In this document: positions 2,161 through 28,681 of the stretch, piece after piece
Position numbering within the stretch: position 1 is the stretch's first letter
Layout: each line of letters starts with the position of its first letter
Source: Candidatus Uhrbacteria bacterium
GTDB taxonomy: Bacteria > Patescibacteriota > Patescibacteriia > UBA9934
Assembly (NCBI GenBank): GCA_943350635.1
Contig: CALRAI010000004.1
Span: forward strand, 1-52,395
Length of the DNA stretch: 52,395 nt
Direction: 5' to 3'
Notes under the pieces: model-generated
What the model was told of the DNA's origin: nothing
Database searches by the model: none
The model's input: the letters and a program-made list of their open reading frames with translations, nothing else
Made by a program: the position numbers and the translations under genes

Positions 2161-3591
2161 ATGTCCGAACGCCAAGCTATTGCGAAAAATACGATCATTC
2201 AAGTTTTTGGGAAGATTATTGGAACACTTCTTGGCTTAGCAACGTTCTGGTTCCTGATTCATTCGCTGGACGATGCGGGATTTGGCGCGCTCACCAAAGC
2301 ACAAACGTATGCCTCTCTGTTCGCGATTCTTGTGGATTTTGGCTTGACGCTCACCACCGCGCAAATGATTTCGGAACCTGGAGCAAACGAGAAGAAGATT
2401 CTTGGAACCATTTTCTCGTTGCGTATTGTGAGCGCGTTCCTGTTTCTGAGTTTGGCGCCAATCTCTGCACTGTTTCTCCCAACGACTGGGGATGAGCGAT
2501 TGGCAATTTTGTTCTTTGCGGGATCCTTCTTCTTCAGCTCCATCGCGCAAGTATTTGTAGGAGTATTTCAGAAACGGTTACTCCTTGCTCGTGCAACGCT
2601 TGCGGAAACTGCGAATCGGTTCGTTTCCTTTTGTGGCGTGCTCGCGGTGTGGTATTGGCATCTTGGTCTTGGTGCCGCAGCGTTCGCCTTTGTACTTGGT
2701 GGCATTGTTCACGTGGTGTTGATGCTCGATAGCGTTCGAACCCACGTACCAATTTCGCTTACGTTCGACCGCGCGATTGCAAAAACGATCATTATCAAAA
2801 GCTGGCCGATGGGTGTTTCTATTTTCTTCAACCTCCTCTATTTGAAAGGCGATATTCTGTTCATGTGGCTGTTTGGCCGATCCGATACGGAAATAGGATA
2901 TTACGGCAGTGCATACAAAGTGATCGACGTCGTGACGACAGTACCAACAACACTGATGGGTCTGTTGCTTCCCTTACTGGTGGCTGCGTGGGCAACGCAA
3001 AATCGACCATTGTTCATGAAACGCATGCAAGACGGTTTCGACACGTTGGTGATGCTCGCGATTCCGTTTGCCTTTGGAAGTGTGTTTTGCGGGGTTGCGG
3101 TGATGACACTCATTAAGCCATCGCTTGGCCCAGCTGGTCATGTACTTGCTGTTCTCGGCCCCACAGCAAGTGCAGTGTTCCTTGGTTCGTTGTTCTCTTA
3201 CACCGTTGTGGCCATTGGGAAACAACGCCTGATGATGTTTGCGTATGCGTTCGTAGCCGTTGTTGCGATTGCGGGATACTCGATATTTATTCCTCAGTAC
3301 GGCATGTGGGCCGCGGCAACAACGTCGTTCTGCTCAGAAATGTTGATTGCGATTCTTTCCGCTGCCGTAGTGATGTATTACACAAACTGGAAACCACATC
3401 TTGGCCTGTTCGGAAAATCAATCGCGGCTTCGGTGGTGATGGGTATTGGGTTGTATCTTCTTCGTGACTCGAACGCGTGTATTTCTATTCCGGTTGGTAC
3501 GATTCTCTACATCATGAGTCTTGCAGCGCTTGGTGGGCCGTCACCGAAGTCGCTTCTGAAATTATTCCGACCAGACACTGCTGTTGTATGA
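2161..3591 (+). CDS. Wzx-like polysaccharide flippase (oligosaccharide flippase family)
   Basis: 476 residues with about 12-14 membrane helices and the N-terminal pattern of the MATE/MOP flippases: IAKNTIIQVFGKIIGTLLGL, then a helix with DDAGFGALTKAQTYA. Such proteins move lipid-linked sugar units from the inner to the outer face of the cytoplasmic membrane. The stop codon overlaps the start of the next gene (ATGA), an O-antigen-ligase-like protein, so the two are probably translated together and act in one surface-glycan pathway. No Shine-Dalgarno sequence is seen. The -10 TACAAT ends 10 bases before the ATG, implying a leaderless message. Confidence 0.85.
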   Translation: MSERQAIAKNTIIQVFGKIIGTLLGLATFWFLIHSLDDAGFGALTKAQTYASLFAILVDFGLTLTTAQMISEPGANEKKILGTIFSLRIVSAFLFLSLAPISALFLPTTGDERLAILFFAGSFFFSSIAQVFVGVFQKRLLLARATLAETANRFVSFCGVLAVWYWHLGLGAAAFAFVLGGIVHVVLMLDSVRTHVPISLTFDRAIAKTIIIKSWPMGVSIFFNLLYLKGDILFMWLFGRSDTEIGYYGSAYKVIDVVTTVPTTLMGLLLPLLVAAWATQNRPLFMKRMQDGFDTLVMLAIPFAFGSVFCGVAVMTLIKPSLGPAGHVLAVLGPTASAVFLGSLFSYTVVAIGKQRLMMFAYAFVAVVAIAGYSIFIPQYGMWAAATTSFCSEMLIAILSAAVVMYYTNWKPHLGLFGKSIAASVVMGIGLYLLRDSNACISIPVGTILYIMSLAALGGPSPKSLLKLFRPDTAVV

Positions 3592-24549: not shown

Positions 24550-24600
24550 AGATGCGGAAATGATAGCGAAAATTCTCAATGAAGGCAAAACAAACCTCTC

Positions 24601-25563
24601 TTAGTGCTCGCCAAACATCCAAAATATATTCTCAACCTTGTTTTGAAGCGTATGAGCATTTCCATGATGTAAAAGTCCAAGATACGAAGCGGCAACCGCC
24701 TCCGTTGGCTTTTCGACGAGATTCTGAAACATTCGTTCTTCAGTTGCTTTTCTCAACGTTCGATACCGTTCACTATGCCTCCAGCCCAAAAAATCTATTC
24801 CTGAAGATAATGTTCTCAGCTCGATCTTTTTTGGATGAATATGTAATCGTAACGTGTTCCACAAAAACTCATCGATCTTTGGCAGTTGATGAAGTAACCA
24901 ATCTCTATCCTTCGATAACACCACAAAGTCGTCGGCATATCGGATGTAGTGTTTTATCTTCAGCACCTGTTTCATGAATTGGTCGAGCTCATTCATGTAC
25001 ACATTTGCAAACAGTTGTGATGTGAGATTTCCAAGTGGAAGACCTTTTCCGGGAATACCACTCGAAAATGACGAAATCACTCGCTCAAAAAGCCACATTG
25101 TTTCCAGGTTAGGAACTCGACGATACAGAATTGATAACAGAACATCATGATCAATGCTCGCAAAGAACTTTCGAACATCGAGTTTTAACACCCAACATGT
25201 TCGCGTATTGTTTTTACTCACTGATCCTGCAAATTTCTGAAACCGATCCATCGCTTTGTGTGTTCCCTTTTCTTCACGACAGGAAAATGAATCTGCAATA
25301 AATAATCGATCGTAAAACGGATACAGCTTTCTATGGATTGCGTGATGGAGCAGTCGATCTCGAACCGATGCCTTATGAATATCTCGCAGCTTGGGATCCG
25401 CAATCCGAAAATGGTAATATGCTTCGTGTTCGTATTGATGAGTAACGAGATCATTGTGAAGCTCGCGGATATTCTCAAGCAAGCGCTCTTTAAACCCCTG
25501 AACATCAAGCTTTTTCTTCTTCCCCACCAAAAATTCAGTCCACGCATCAAGCAGATTTTTCAT
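24601..25563 (-). CDS. Diversity-generating retroelement reverse transcriptase
   Basis: 320 residues, one reverse-transcriptase domain and no maturase, endonuclease or RNase H part. Key motifs: LKLDVRKFFASIDHD (first catalytic Asp, about residues 127-140), LGNLTSQLFANVYMNELDQF (177-196), YADD (209-212) and DFLGW near residue 260. The [LIV]GxxxSQ block in place of the usual QG motif is diagnostic of DGR reverse transcriptases. It copies TR RNA into mutated cDNA in which adenines are replaced, and the cDNA replaces the VR. A GAGG sequence precedes the start. It lies downstream of TR on the same strand, with the avd gene inverted between them. Confidence 0.95.
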   Translation of the reverse strand: MKNLLDAWTEFLVGKKKKLDVQGFKERLLENIRELHNDLVTHQYEHEAYYHFRIADPKLRDIHKASVRDRLLHHAIHRKLYPFYDRLFIADSFSCREEKGTHKAMDRFQKFAGSVSKNNTRTCWVLKLDVRKFFASIDHDVLLSILYRRVPNLETMWLFERVISSFSSGIPGKGLPLGNLTSQLFANVYMNELDQFMKQVLKIKHYIRYADDFVVLSKDRDWLLHQLPKIDEFLWNTLRLHIHPKKIELRTLSSGIDFLGWRHSERYRTLRKATEERMFQNLVEKPTEAVAASYLGLLHHGNAHTLQNKVENIFWMFGEH

Positions 25564-25657
25564 TGATAGTATTTCCTCAAATCTCGCCGTAAAAACCCTT
25601 CTATGAATGTCACCCCCCCCCCGAAACGTCGCTCACGGTAGCGCTTCCCAAAACTCG

Positions 25658-26026
25658 ATGACGAGTGTTCCCGTTTTGCATATATTAAGCGATGTTTATA
25701 AGATGTGGCACATTGCGCTATCAAATATTCCCCGGCTTTCGCGATACACTCTTGGGGCAAAAATCGATCTCCTCTTTTGCGACGCGCTCGAACTCATTTT
25801 ACTCGCCTCGTATACGTCTCGTGATAAAAAACTTGTCTTTATTCAACAAGCCAGTGCAAAATTTGATTCGCTCAAATTCTTTCTGCAACTCGCATGGGAA
25901 ATGAAATTTCTTGATCACAAGACGTATCAACTCATCGCAACACCGCTCATTGATGTAGGGAAAATGCTCGGAAGTTGGATGTCTTCTTTAAAAATGAAAG
26001 CTCCCGATATTTCGGAAGCTTCCTAA
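25658..26026 (+). CDS. avd: Avd-like accessory protein of the DGR (four-helix bundle)
   Basis: About 122 residues from ATG 25658; a frame opens 17 codons earlier through a C10 tract and is rejected. The Avd pattern is plain: IPRLSRYTLGAKID near the first helix, LLASYTSRDKKLVFIQQASAKFD, and FFLQLAWEMKFLDHKTYQ. Avd forms a basic barrel-shaped pentamer that binds the reverse transcriptase and template RNA. It is on the opposite strand to RT, TR and target, unlike the Bordetella phage order where all point one way. Its last codons overlap a hairpin that may end TR transcription on the other strand. Confidence 0.88.
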   Translation: MTSVPVLHILSDVYKMWHIALSNIPRLSRYTLGAKIDLLFCDALELILLASYTSRDKKLVFIQQASAKFDSLKFFLQLAWEMKFLDHKTYQLIATPLIDVGKMLGSWMSSLKMKAPDISEAS

Positions 26027-26394
26027 ACATGTTCCCATTGCTCGGCGAGCACCAGGTAATTGCGATTGAACCTGTTCTGCACGTCGTTGAGGTTCGCGTT
26101 CCGCTTGCCGTCGTTCTCGTTCAACACGAGGACGCAGACGTTCCCGTCGGAATTGCAGCACCCTCGTCAGTATGCACAACGCCATCCGCACCACCACCCG
26201 TTGAATACTCTTCGGGCTGAATATTATTTGGGATATTGAAATCCACCAGCATTGTGCACCAAGGAGTTTATGTTTGGGAAATGTGCAATAGCACGCTGAT
26301 GTTCGCTGTACGAATCCTTCATTCTGGCGAATTGCGGTTTCCAGATTTCGACGGCCCCAAGCCGTAACCGAGGGCGCAAATGTTCTACTGTCCA
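25990..26394 (-). ncRNA. Predicted TR RNA of the DGR
   Basis: A promoter-like TGGTATACT (-10 at 26400-26405, extended -10) precedes this stretch on the minus strand. A hairpin (AAGCTTCCGA / TCGGGAGCTT, 25998-26021) with a following T run would end it. The RNA would carry the template repeat (26040-26161) with about 230 bases of upstream flank. Flanking sequence is needed for priming in known DGRs. The extents are predicted only. Apart from the TR fragment no gene of its own is seen here. Confidence 0.45.
26040..26161 (-). repeat. DGR template repeat (TR)
   Basis: 122 bp that align without gaps to the variable repeat at 26526-26647. Read in the target frame it encodes CCNSDGNVCVLVLNENDGKR and NANLNDVQNRFNRNYLVLAE. 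It is full of AAC/AAT codons, as in TRs, where adenines mark positions to be mutated. An in-frame stop lies just before it and no start codon opens the frame, so it is not a gene. Confidence 0.95.
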
Positions 26395-26407
26395 GCATGA
26401 GTATACC

Positions 26408-26447
26408 AAAACGAGAATCGCGCCCGCCCCTATTCGAGGCGAGCGCG
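26408..26447 (-). terminator. Terminator/hairpin after the DGR target gene
   Basis: CGCGCTCGCC pairs with GGCGGGCGCG (one G-T pair), followed on the minus strand by ATTCTCGTTTT. It lies about 70-100 bases after the target stop. DGRs often carry a hairpin just after VR that aids homing; this one could do both jobs. Confidence 0.65.
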
Positions 26448-26514
26448 ACCGTGCGTAATGACCAAGTGACCAAGTTTCCAAGTACCAGTCCCCAGCATCC
26501 AAGCGTCCGAGCGC

Positions 26515-27036
26515 CTACTCCTTGGGCTCGGCGAGCACCAGGCAACCGCGATAGAACCCGTCCCGCACGACGTCGAGGTACGCGCGCCGCTCGCCGTCGT
26601 ACTCGGACAACACGAGGACGCAGACGCACCCGCCGGAATAGCGGCACTTCTGGCCGAGGATAACGAGGGGGTTCTTGCGCTGGGCGTCGGGATTCTCCGC
26701 CGCCCACTTGATGCCCTTGTCCGGGTTGACCGGTTGCATTGGGGGCTTCATGGCGGCAAGGTACGCGATTGCTTCCGAATCGGTCCAGACGTCCATGTCG
26801 ATCTCGACCGGGCGAACACCGGTGGTGAAGACGAACGCGTCGGCGCCAGGGAAATGGGCATCGTCGATCTCGGGGTTGACATACCCGTCGCAAGCGAGCT
26901 CGGTCATGAGCATCGTGATTCCGCCGGGGATGGTCACCTTGCCGTCCAGGATCGCGAGGATGTATTTGACGGTGGCGACGGCCTTGGGGCTGGTGTCGGC
27001 GAGGAGGGAGGCGATGCGGGAGAGGAAGGTGTCCAT
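26515..27036 (-). CDS. DGR target protein with C-terminal variable region
   Basis: 173 residues, GC-rich, starting at an ATG preceded by GGAGTATTTC. Residues 130-170 are encoded by the variable repeat and carry the scaffold CVCVLVLSEYDGERRAY, then DVVRDGFYRGCLVLAEP. Substituted positions are those where TR has Asn or other adenine-containing codons. The invariant hydrophobic strands with variable exposed residues fit a ligand-binding C-type-lectin-like fold; that fold is inferred, not shown. The first 130 residues match no family I know. No signal peptide or membrane segment is seen, so the export route is unclear. A strong promoter (27094-27122) drives it. Confidence 0.88.
   Translation of the reverse strand: MDTFLSRIASLLADTSPKAVATVKYILAILDGKVTIPGGITMLMTELACDGYVNPEIDDAHFPGADAFVFTTGVRPVEIDMDVWTDSEAIAYLAAMKPPMQPVNPDKGIKWAAENPDAQRKNPLVILGQKCRYSGGCVCVLVLSEYDGERRAYLDVVRDGFYRGCLVLAEPKE
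26526..26647 (-). repeat. DGR variable repeat (VR)
   Basis: 122 bp at the 3' end of the target gene, 486 bp from TR in the same orientation. It differs from TR at 21 sites, 20 of which are adenines in TR (30 adenines in total). The remaining difference (T to C) is at the 5' edge. The last 17 coding-strand bases, CCTGGTGCTCGCCGAGC, are identical in both and would be the initiation-of-mutagenic-homing end. Confidence 0.95.
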
Positions 27037-27093
27037 TGAAATACTCCGAAGGTGGGGGGTTTGAGGGAACTTAGGGTGAAAACTTGCCTAAGA

Positions 27094-27158
27094 ATCATAG
27101 CAAAAAAATGACGCTTTGTCAAGGAAAAAACGTCATTTCTTGGCTAATGTGAGCGAAG
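27094..27158 (-). promoter_or_regulatory. Strong promoter of the DGR target with an upstream palindromic motif
   Basis: On the minus strand: TTGACA (27117-27122), a 17-base spacer, TATGAT (27094-27099) with TGC before it (extended -10). A motif CTTCGCTCACATTAGCCAAG (27139-27158) lies 16 bases upstream of -35. The same motif stands at the same distance from the promoter of the 3D-domain gene at 37052. The untranslated leader would be about 50 bases. Confidence 0.7.
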
Positions 27159-27184
27159 TTTTGAGAACTGTGTTTTTTACATTT

Positions 27185-27400
27185 CTACGCAGTTTTTCGT
27201 TCCAGGCGTGTTAGTCGGGTTTCGTGATCGTCGAGTTGAGGAACGATATTTTCTGCAATAAAATCCGTCACCTCTTCAATAACACGCCTTTCGGTTCCCC
27301 GTAAAAGTGAGTGCATTTCGTCACGAATCTCACGCTTTAAAATGGCGTTATTTTCTGTAAGCATCTGACGTAGCACCTGAATGTCGTTTGTATCGAGCAT
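27185..27400 (-). CDS. Small coiled-coil protein
   Basis: 71 residues, fully helical with heptad spacing: VLRQMLTENNAILKREIRDE, then VEEVTDFIAENIVPQLDDH and LTRLERKT. No membrane segment. Small proteins of this build are frequent in CPR genomes and have no known role. It lies between the DGR and nifS, with its own start and intergenic gaps on both sides, so it is probably monocistronic. Confidence 0.6.
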   Translation of the reverse strand: MLDTNDIQVLRQMLTENNAILKREIRDEMHSLLRGTERRVIEEVTDFIAENIVPQLDDHETRLTRLERKTA

Positions 27401-27529
27401 AGGAAATATGCTTTACGCAAGCCGCTTGGACGATCCCTCCCTCGCCTCAAGATTGCGTGAATGAAAAATGTACCCATGGGATTTTTCTATCCTATCACGG
27501 TTGATGATTGAGAAAAAGTGGATAATCTC

Positions 27530-28681
27530 TTAGCCAAATCTCGCCGCCAAAACGATGTCGCGCACGGCGGTGATGGTGCGGAGAATGTCTTGATCTGATG
27601 TGGAGCGACCGAGGGTGAAGCGGACGCTGGAGTTGATGCGATCCGGAGAAAGTCCAAGGGCGGCGAGCACGTGGCTGGGTTCGGAGCCGCCTTTGCAGGC
27701 AGAACCGGTGGAGACTGCGATGCCGGCGGCGTCGAGTCGGATGACGAGCTCCTCCCCCTCAATTCCTTTGAACGACACATTCACGTTGTTTGGTAATCGG
27801 CGAATGTGGTCCCCGTTCAACTGTGTGCCATCGATTTCGAGTAGGCCGGTCATGAGACGCTCACGAAGCGGAAGGATGCGCGCCACTTCACCATCACGCA
27901 TTTCCGTTGTCTCGACCAACGCCGATGCGAAGCCAACCGCTCCGGCAATATTTTCCGTGCCGGGTCGGCGACCGGATTCTTGTTTGCCACCACCGAACAC
28001 AGAAGACCACGGAGTGTTTCTACGGATGAAGAGTGCGCCGGCGCCTTTTGGACCGTATATTTTTGGACTCGACAGCGTGAGAAGGTCAACGTGAAGCGAC
28101 GCAACGTCGATCGTAAGATAATTCGGTGCCTGGCTCGCGTCGGAGTGAAAGAGTGGGTACACCGATCCATTTTTCTTCCGCCATGCATCGATTGCTTTCC
28201 CGATGTGATGAATGTCGTGGACAACGCCGATCTCATTATTCGCCATCATTACCGATACGAGAACGGTGTCCGGTCGAAGTGCTGCAACGATCGATTCCCC
28301 ATCAACGTGGCCGCGATCGTCAACGGGAAGGACGGCTACGTCCGCACCAGCGGCACGAAGTGCGCCAAGTACTGCAGCGTGTTCGGTGGCAACGGTGACG
28401 ACATGTTTTCCGCGCATCGATGCCGCCTTTAGCGCTCCAAAAACTGCAAGATTGATCGACTCTGTTGCACCGGATGTGAGCACAATCTCGTCTGTGTGCG
28501 CACCAATGCATTGTGCGATCGATTCATGACATGCACGAAGAATATTCGATGAGCGCACGCCTTCATGATGAATGCTGGAAGGATTCCCCACTTCCGCAAG
28601 TAATACCGGTTCCATAGCCATCCACGCCACTGAGGAAAGTGGTGTTGCGGCGGCGTGATCGAGGTAGATTCGCTTTTTCAT
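27530..28681 (-). CDS. Cysteine desulfurase (NifS/IscS family)
   Basis: About 383 residues from ATG 28681. The aminotransferase class V fold is plain: IYLDHAAATPLSSVAW at the start, SGATESINLAVFG for the PLP phosphate, LTLSSPKIYGPKGAG with the PLP lysine, and STGSACKGGSEPSH with the catalytic Cys. The enzyme takes sulfur from cysteine for Fe-S clusters or tRNA thiolation. Its start is 2 bases after the stop of the thioredoxin-like gene upstream, so they share a transcript, and the VIT1-type gene is just above that. Confidence 0.92.
   Translation of the reverse strand: MKKRIYLDHAAATPLSSVAWMAMEPVLLAEVGNPSSIHHEGVRSSNILRACHESIAQCIGAHTDEIVLTSGATESINLAVFGALKAASMRGKHVVTVATEHAAVLGALRAAGADVAVLPVDDRGHVDGESIVAALRPDTVLVSVMMANNEIGVVHDIHHIGKAIDAWRKKNGSVYPLFHSDASQAPNYLTIDVASLHVDLLTLSSPKIYGPKGAGALFIRRNTPWSSVFGGGKQESGRRPGTENIAGAVGFASALVETTEMRDGEVARILPLRERLMTGLLEIDGTQLNGDHIRRLPNNVNVSFKGIEGEELVIRLDAAGIAVSTGSACKGGSEPSHVLAALGLSPDRINSSVRFTLGRSTSDQDILRTITAVRDIVLAARFG

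Follow-up and report, generated by a model that had tools for sequence, protein, structure and literature searches.

In prokaryotes, targeted hypermutation of proteins is best known from diversity-generating retroelements (DGRs). They are unusually common in Patescibacteria, where their targets are unexplained, and their mechanism is known mostly from one phage element. The locus described here lies on a 52,395-nt stretch of a contig of Candidatus Uhrbacteria (this whole stretch is referred to below as the window). It raises the question of whether a pair of repeats that differ almost exclusively at adenines records the action of such a retroelement and, if so, how the template RNA of that element is organized.

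The first-pass annotation had reported two 122-bp repeats, a template repeat (TR) and a variable repeat (VR), aligning without gaps at an offset of 486. A program recount yielded the same gapless alignment (122 of 122 positions), and a repeat search returned the same pair. In the coding sense of the target gene, which is the minus strand, the repeats differ at 21 positions and, just as had been claimed, 20 of these fall on TR adenines, of which there are 30; A>G accounts for 11 of the changes, A>T for 7 and A>C for 2. The other 92 sites are identical in 91 cases, and the sole exception, a T>C difference at position 5 of 122, is located near the 5' edge. Many non-adenine differences or indels on realignment would have refuted the annotation; there was 1 non-A difference and no gap. 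That chance divergence cannot account for the pattern was corroborated by a Fisher exact test of the adenine restriction (p = 1.4e-14) as well as by the comparison with a binomial expectation that had been suggested as a check (p = 1.1e-11). None of the differences in VR is a change to A (0 cases), and the similarity between TR and VR ends sharply at both edges. The final 17 nt of TR and VR are identical and divergence follows immediately beyond, at the place of IMH and IMH*; a function of these ends can be inferred at most. The adenines of TR occupy codon position 1 (12) and position 2 (18), never position 3 (0), and 10 codons are AAY, in which the substitution of A is unable to create a stop codon. 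The annotation had also proposed that a genome-wide search with TR as the query might reveal further VR copies. This search recovered the TR and VR of the locus itself, but no further VR copy of this TR; the other matches were a weaker one to the TR of a second cassette (contig C31) and hits at chance level.

Family-wide, public-genome and phylum-wide searches yielded about 60 further cassettes of relatives, and the adenine-restricted pattern was seen again in about 55 cassettes. Pooled over cassettes, 493 of 908 TR adenines were changed, compared with 5 of 2,698 other sites, although the latter count is biased low because four cassettes were excluded and the pair finder penalizes non-A differences. 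The most common change is A>G (11 of 20 at this locus, 287 of 493 in the pooled set), which would be compatible with a different cause of the differences, namely, RNA editing-like or deaminase mutagenesis. This explanation can practically be dismissed, however, given that A>T and A>C are frequent as well, that RT and Avd are linked to the locus, that the pattern is repeated in so many cassettes, and that non-A changes are homogenized from TR to VR, a concerted evolution that contradicts editing.

The homogenization became apparent from the orthologous cassettes of two congeners (L060 and L062). Wherever the three TRs have different letters at a non-A column, each VR agrees with the TR of its own cassette, with 1 deviation among 30 cases (29 of 30). 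VRs of different species were unequal in 43 of 87 comparisons for all-A columns, versus 18 of 270 for non-A columns. Judging from these alignments, TR-to-VR concerted evolution continued past the species split, that is, homing has recurred. At position 5, both congeners have C in TR and in VR, which is why the T>C exception most plausibly reflects a C-to-T change that this particular TR underwent after the last homing and that has not been passed to VR. The claim that mutagenic homing has acted at the locus is upheld by the combination of the adenine-restricted pattern, an RT with the motifs GNLTSQ and YADD, an Avd, and the concerted evolution in the congeners; on sequence evidence, the locus is a DGR of a Patescibacteria genome. 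Past and repeated homing is documented in these comparisons, and present-day activity is at most inferred. It cannot be ignored that population data are lacking, that avd expression may hang on a C10 tract (see below), and that one TR mutation is not yet found in VR, all of which would be in line with a decayed cassette with homing confined to former times and with RT or Avd since inactivated or silenced. We nevertheless deem decay improbable, because the reading frames of RT and avd are open with their motifs kept, and because the agreement of TR and VR at 91 of 92 non-A sites argues that homing was recent.

In TR sense, the cassette consists of the target gene with VR at its 3' end, a hairpin, a leader, TR, an inverted avd and the RT gene (Table 1).

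Table 1. Features of the retroelement cassette (positions refer to the window; strand relative to the contig).
Feature	Position	Strand	Remarks
Cassette, approximate extent	24574..27599		Missing at this site in two congeners
Reverse transcriptase (RT), 320 aa	24601..25563	-	RVT_1; YADD, GNLTSQ
avd (bAvd)	25607..26026	+	Inverted relative to TR and RT; start 25607 or further in (e.g. 25658)
C10 tract	25613..25622	+	Directly after ATG TCA of avd, in frame
Intrinsic terminator of template RNA	25996..26023	-	12-bp stem, ATTTTT tail; overlaps last avd codons; sequence call
Tail 3' of TR (GGG-AACAU-GUUUA)	26024..26036	-	Predicted partner of leader segment
TR (template repeat)	26040-26161	-	30 adenines; repeat search and recount
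Structured leader RNA, conserved, directly 5' of TR	26162..26394	-	R1 match 26169-26393, 166.8 bits
Leader segment UAAACUCC	26263..26270	-	Predicted pairing with TR 3' flank; family-wide test
-10 box TATACT of template RNA	26400..26405	-	TG at 26407-26408; sequence call
Hairpin, GC-rich, followed by T-rich tail; lies between target stop codon and leader	26416..26450	-	Terminator-like; 76 nt after VR
VR	26526-26647	-	Ends 11 nt ahead of target ORF end, stop codon counted
Target (variable) gene, 173 aa	26515..27036	-	VR at 3' end
Promoter-like site of target gene	27094..27122	-	TTGACA-17-TATGAT, 11 of 12, TG before -10; consensus scan only

The genome (949 kb in 54 contigs) contains three complete cassettes, each with its own TR/VR pair: the one in the window, one on contig C31, with 19 of 21 TR/VR differences at A, and one on contig C1, with 18 of 18. 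The third cassette (C1; L018 7534-9795, minus strand) diversifies the C-terminus of a 753-aa ORF, which is far bigger than the other targets and has a different N-terminus. In two congeners, the sequences that flank the cassette here (window positions up to 24573, and 27600 or 27666 onwards) follow one another with 82 and 143 nt in between, and the orthologous cassette is found on another contig. From this arrangement it follows that the cassette (about 24574-27599) has, as far as the assemblies tell, either moved or been lost at one site and acquired at a different one. A small coiled-coil-like ORF (MLD-NDIQ ... PQLDDHETRL-RLERK) lies upstream of the target in two cassettes (window about 27200-27401, minus strand; L011 7577-7825, minus strand), and its relatives occur at several other places in the genome, with or without a cassette.

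The RT matches the RVT_1 profile (1.8e-23), is 35-41% identical to the RTs of phage DGRs, and has its nearest named relative in a Ca. Uhrbacteria MAG. Models of group II introns, retrons and DRTs were considered as alternative identities and score far below their cut-offs. In a tree built without the Roux 2021 reference set, the RT clusters with RTs from other Patescibacteria and away from eight phage/virus RTs, but support is low. A DGR of another kind was encountered on a Ca. Shapirobacteria contig (L058): its RT groups with the phage RTs, its target ORF has 420 aa, and its 22 TR/VR differences are restricted to A; neither Avd nor leader was found there. The Avd matches Pfam bAvd over the cut-off (6.5e-12) and NCBIfam DivGenRetAVD under the curated cut-off (2.4e-17). 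In all loci where it was found (38/38), avd is positioned between TR and RT on the strand opposite to RT, and the same inversion was observed in an independent set of loci with both genes (26/26). In contrast, the annotated phage DGRs that served as controls (BPP-1, ACA1, Lagaffe, Magia) have an avd that runs colinear with RT and is situated 5' of TR. Both the cassette as such and its inverted avd are thus well established at the sequence level.

The target ORFs of the cassettes were chosen by stop-free TR frames and AAY codons. For the target protein in the window, sequence searches of Pfam, NCBIfam and PDB gave no significant match. An AF2 model of the full target, built from 6 sequences, was set aside (pLDDT 48.7). 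A model of the VR domain (pLDDT 81.6) displays strands after helices and has no significant match among solved or viral structures; a C-type lectin-like protein reached only E = 1.5. The C-type lectin fold is usual, albeit not universal, for the VR domains of DGRs, and for this target the model neither shows nor excludes it. Any function of the target is an inference. By analogy, the hairpin between the target gene and the leader may, in addition to its terminator-like appearance, serve like the homing-aiding hairpin of BPP-1.

Directly 5' of TR, non-coding DNA is strongly conserved over a leader of ~230 nt, the onset of conservation lying just past a -10 box (TGnTATAcT) that precedes TR by 211-284 nt in most cassettes. 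RNAalifold on six close cassettes, with TR included, gave no clean consensus. From the leader alone, in a sequence-only alignment of 16 diverse cassettes, a structure of 43 pairs was derived, 35 of which have compensatory changes on both sides. Paired cells amounted to 87.7%, versus 39-47% with slid partners, and 0 of 500 shuffles reached any of the measures. Since the structure stems from the same alignment that was used to count the pairs, the slid control favours it, and the independent support is provided by searches with a covariance model, R1. This model finds leaders outside its training set beside Avd and RT with up to 194 bits. In the genome under study, it matches in exactly three places, all of them cassettes, and phylum-wide it matches in 69 of 380 Patescibacteria genomes. 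For 74 of the 95 matches, a listed RT follows 641-858 nt downstream in the same orientation, and an RT is present in 65 of the 69 R1-positive genomes versus 44 of the 311 R1-negative ones. In view of the related RTs in these 44 genomes, some relatives may lack the leader or possess a diverged one. R1 did not match any of the eight phage/virus DGRs. In Rfam 15, the leader is unmatched (best E = 3, far below gathering), and the only Rfam matches in the window are tRNAs. In one relative (L055, about 2795-3521), a second leader (180 bits) and a second inverted Avd are present on the contig of the main cassette, so that two cassettes are close together; in another (L046), leader, inverted Avd and RT are present and no TR/VR pair was found in the 11.7 kb searched.

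Because the leader always adjoins recombining repeats, it could in principle be a DNA element, such as a recombination or replication signal, rather than an RNA. This possibility appears very remote, as the helices of the leader contain 153 G-U pairs but only 23 A-C pairs, and as conservation sets in at the conserved -10 box. The excess of G-U over A-C implies that selection acts on the RNA of the TR strand, and a leader RNA on this strand is therefore taken as a result of the comparative analysis.

The 3' side of TR is organized in a similarly uniform manner. A terminator-like hairpin followed by a T-run was detected on the TR strand in 51 of 56 cassettes, starting at a median of 12 nt after TR, compared with 3-14 in control windows; the avd strand, examined over the same interval, gave 5. 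Between TR and this recurrent hairpin lies a segment that can base-pair with a part of the leader that is conserved and single-stranded. The mean duplex energy was -9.23 kcal/mol for own leader-tail combinations versus -7.04 for swapped ones (p = 5e-5), and in the best register 73% of the cells pair versus 64% in permutations (0/2000); relatedness was not removed in these permutation tests. At several pairs, both partners have changed, as in L073 (leader AAUGAAUA with tail UAUUCAUU) and in L061 (leader CAUGAAC with tail GUUCAUG). The leader-tail helix of the window contains a 5-nt bulge. Pairing of the leader with the tail 3' of TR would leave TR looped out.

A unit without its own RT was found in genome G096 (L125, G096:C4:125000-134000). 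It consists of leader, TR and target, with neither RT nor Avd adjoining, and the closest RT found is >40 kb off; nevertheless, its 26 TR/VR differences are all at adenines. To judge from its gene content, this unit fits a self-contained template RNA that is used in trans. In L095, leader, TR and target are likewise present without an adjoining RT or Avd.

How these features relate to the phage paradigm is the central issue. In BPP-1 (mtd-avd-TR-brt), a 3' spacer, the structure of which recruits the RT-Avd complex and which holds the priming adenine, is required (PMC12875486). The locus shares with BPP-1 the RT, Avd, TR, a VR at the 3' end of the target and the A-specific replacement, which is clearly evident here. 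BPP-1 has an avd that is colinear and 5' of TR, and a gap of 144 nt between TR and brt with the 3' spacer; the locus instead has a structured leader 5' of TR, a terminator after TR, and an avd inverted between TR and RT. Neither the colinear avd 5' of TR nor the structured spacer 3' of TR that define the BPP-1 layout is thus realized, but a read-through RNA is not excluded. TR and RT share a strand and are 480 nt apart, so that such an RNA is possible, and, given the spacer requirement of BPP-1, the main rival interpretation is an ordinary DGR of the BPP-1 type in which an RT-binding spacer 3' of TR resides within the antisense avd or the RT leader, while the 5' leader only regulates the transcription or stability of TR. 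We consider this unlikely, though not negligible, in the face of the TR-strand terminator found so soon after TR in nearly all cassettes, the leader-tail pairing, and the leader-TR unit with 26 A-only changes far from any avd or RT.

The interpretation that we favour, and regard as probable, is that of a chromosomal Patescibacterial DGR in which the target has been overwritten by A-mutagenized copies made from a discrete leader-TR-tail template RNA. Adenine-mutagenized copies of TR have repeatedly replaced the 3' end of the target gene. The template would most likely be a discrete RNA of about 400 nt, comprising the ~230-nt leader transcribed from its own -10 box, TR, a short tail and the intrinsic terminator, whereas the convergent avd and the RT gene would form separate units diverging from the region with the C10 tract. 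The leader would fold into its conserved helices and pair with the tail 3' of TR, and it would most likely act as the 3' spacer of BPP-1 does, by recruiting RT-Avd and setting the priming site at the 3' end of TR, after which the cDNA would replace VR by homology. Binding of RT-Avd to the leader, the priming role of the leader or of its pairing with the tail, and the replacement of the spacer are inferences: transcript data are lacking, terminator and promoter are sequence calls, and biochemical evidence that links leader and RT is lacking as well.

Apart from the tract at the start of avd, the window has no C/G run that reaches 9. Homopolymer or dinucleotide tracts in the avd/RT start region were present in 48 of 63 cassettes (e.g. 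L018, L054, L067), mostly G8-G13 in RT sense, with a few (GA)20 or TG/GT repeats. In the same loci, 27 G/C runs of 9 or more were counted in 5.3 kb of avd/RT start regions versus 2 in 412 kb elsewhere; the eight phage/virus DGR loci yielded no such tract. That the kind of repeat varies while the tract itself persists favours slippage, and we regard the idea that the tract marks slippage, i.e. phase variation of avd or RT, as a strong lead from comparative data rather than a result. In a frame test, an ATG within 30 nt can match the Avd frame at some tract length in 25 cassettes, and it is in frame at the assembled length, which is uncertain, in 5 of these 25; as this is no more than expected by chance, phase variation of the coding frame is not shown. 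The poly-G/C contingency loci of Campylobacter and Neisseria likewise carry G/C tracts of 8-13 at gene starts and retain the tract while the repeat type changes. In contrast to them, the tract here is at the start of a retroelement accessory gene, and length variation in populations can at most be inferred.

A more far-reaching proposal, which we put forward only tentatively and would not yet rely on, combines these leads. The 5' leader, docked to the 3' flank of TR, would replace the 3' spacer in the loading of RT-Avd and in priming; as a loading and priming module it would enable leader-TR units to be served in trans, and slippage of the tract would switch the hypermutator on and off in a phase-variable manner.

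DGRs in CPR/Patescibacteria are already known, and genomes with several DGRs have been noted. DGR clade 2 of Roux et al. (2021) is restricted to Patescibacteria/CPR, its RT clade being confined to Patescibacteria (PMC8144416), and it shares with the locus the host group, the cellular location, targets without recognizable domains and a C-terminal VR; in the text searched, no description of a 5' leader RNA, inverted avd or tract was found. In Thiohalocapsa PB-PSB1, several DGR loci per genome, some of them without RT, have been reported (PMC10907252). Multiple loci in one genome, with RT-less ones among them, are features in common with the cassettes described here, but the host group is different, the RT belongs to clade 5 and the targets are conflict systems. 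The 5' leader RNA, the universal inversion of avd, and the tract are undescribed in the literature searched, which did not include Paul 2017, Wu 2018 and Handa 2025, and appear to be new insofar as no description was found. The locus is filed as a DGR with a variant template-RNA layout.

A modelled template RNA with predicted ends allows DGRs to be found from RNA alone. It also predicts that the minimal portable template is the leader-TR-tail unit, and it allows the question of priming to be tested in another system, one very unlike the first. If the tract switches the machine, the cells would pair random diversification of the target with random on/off control and, if true, such switching would explain how a hypermutator can be maintained although good variants should not be lost continually.
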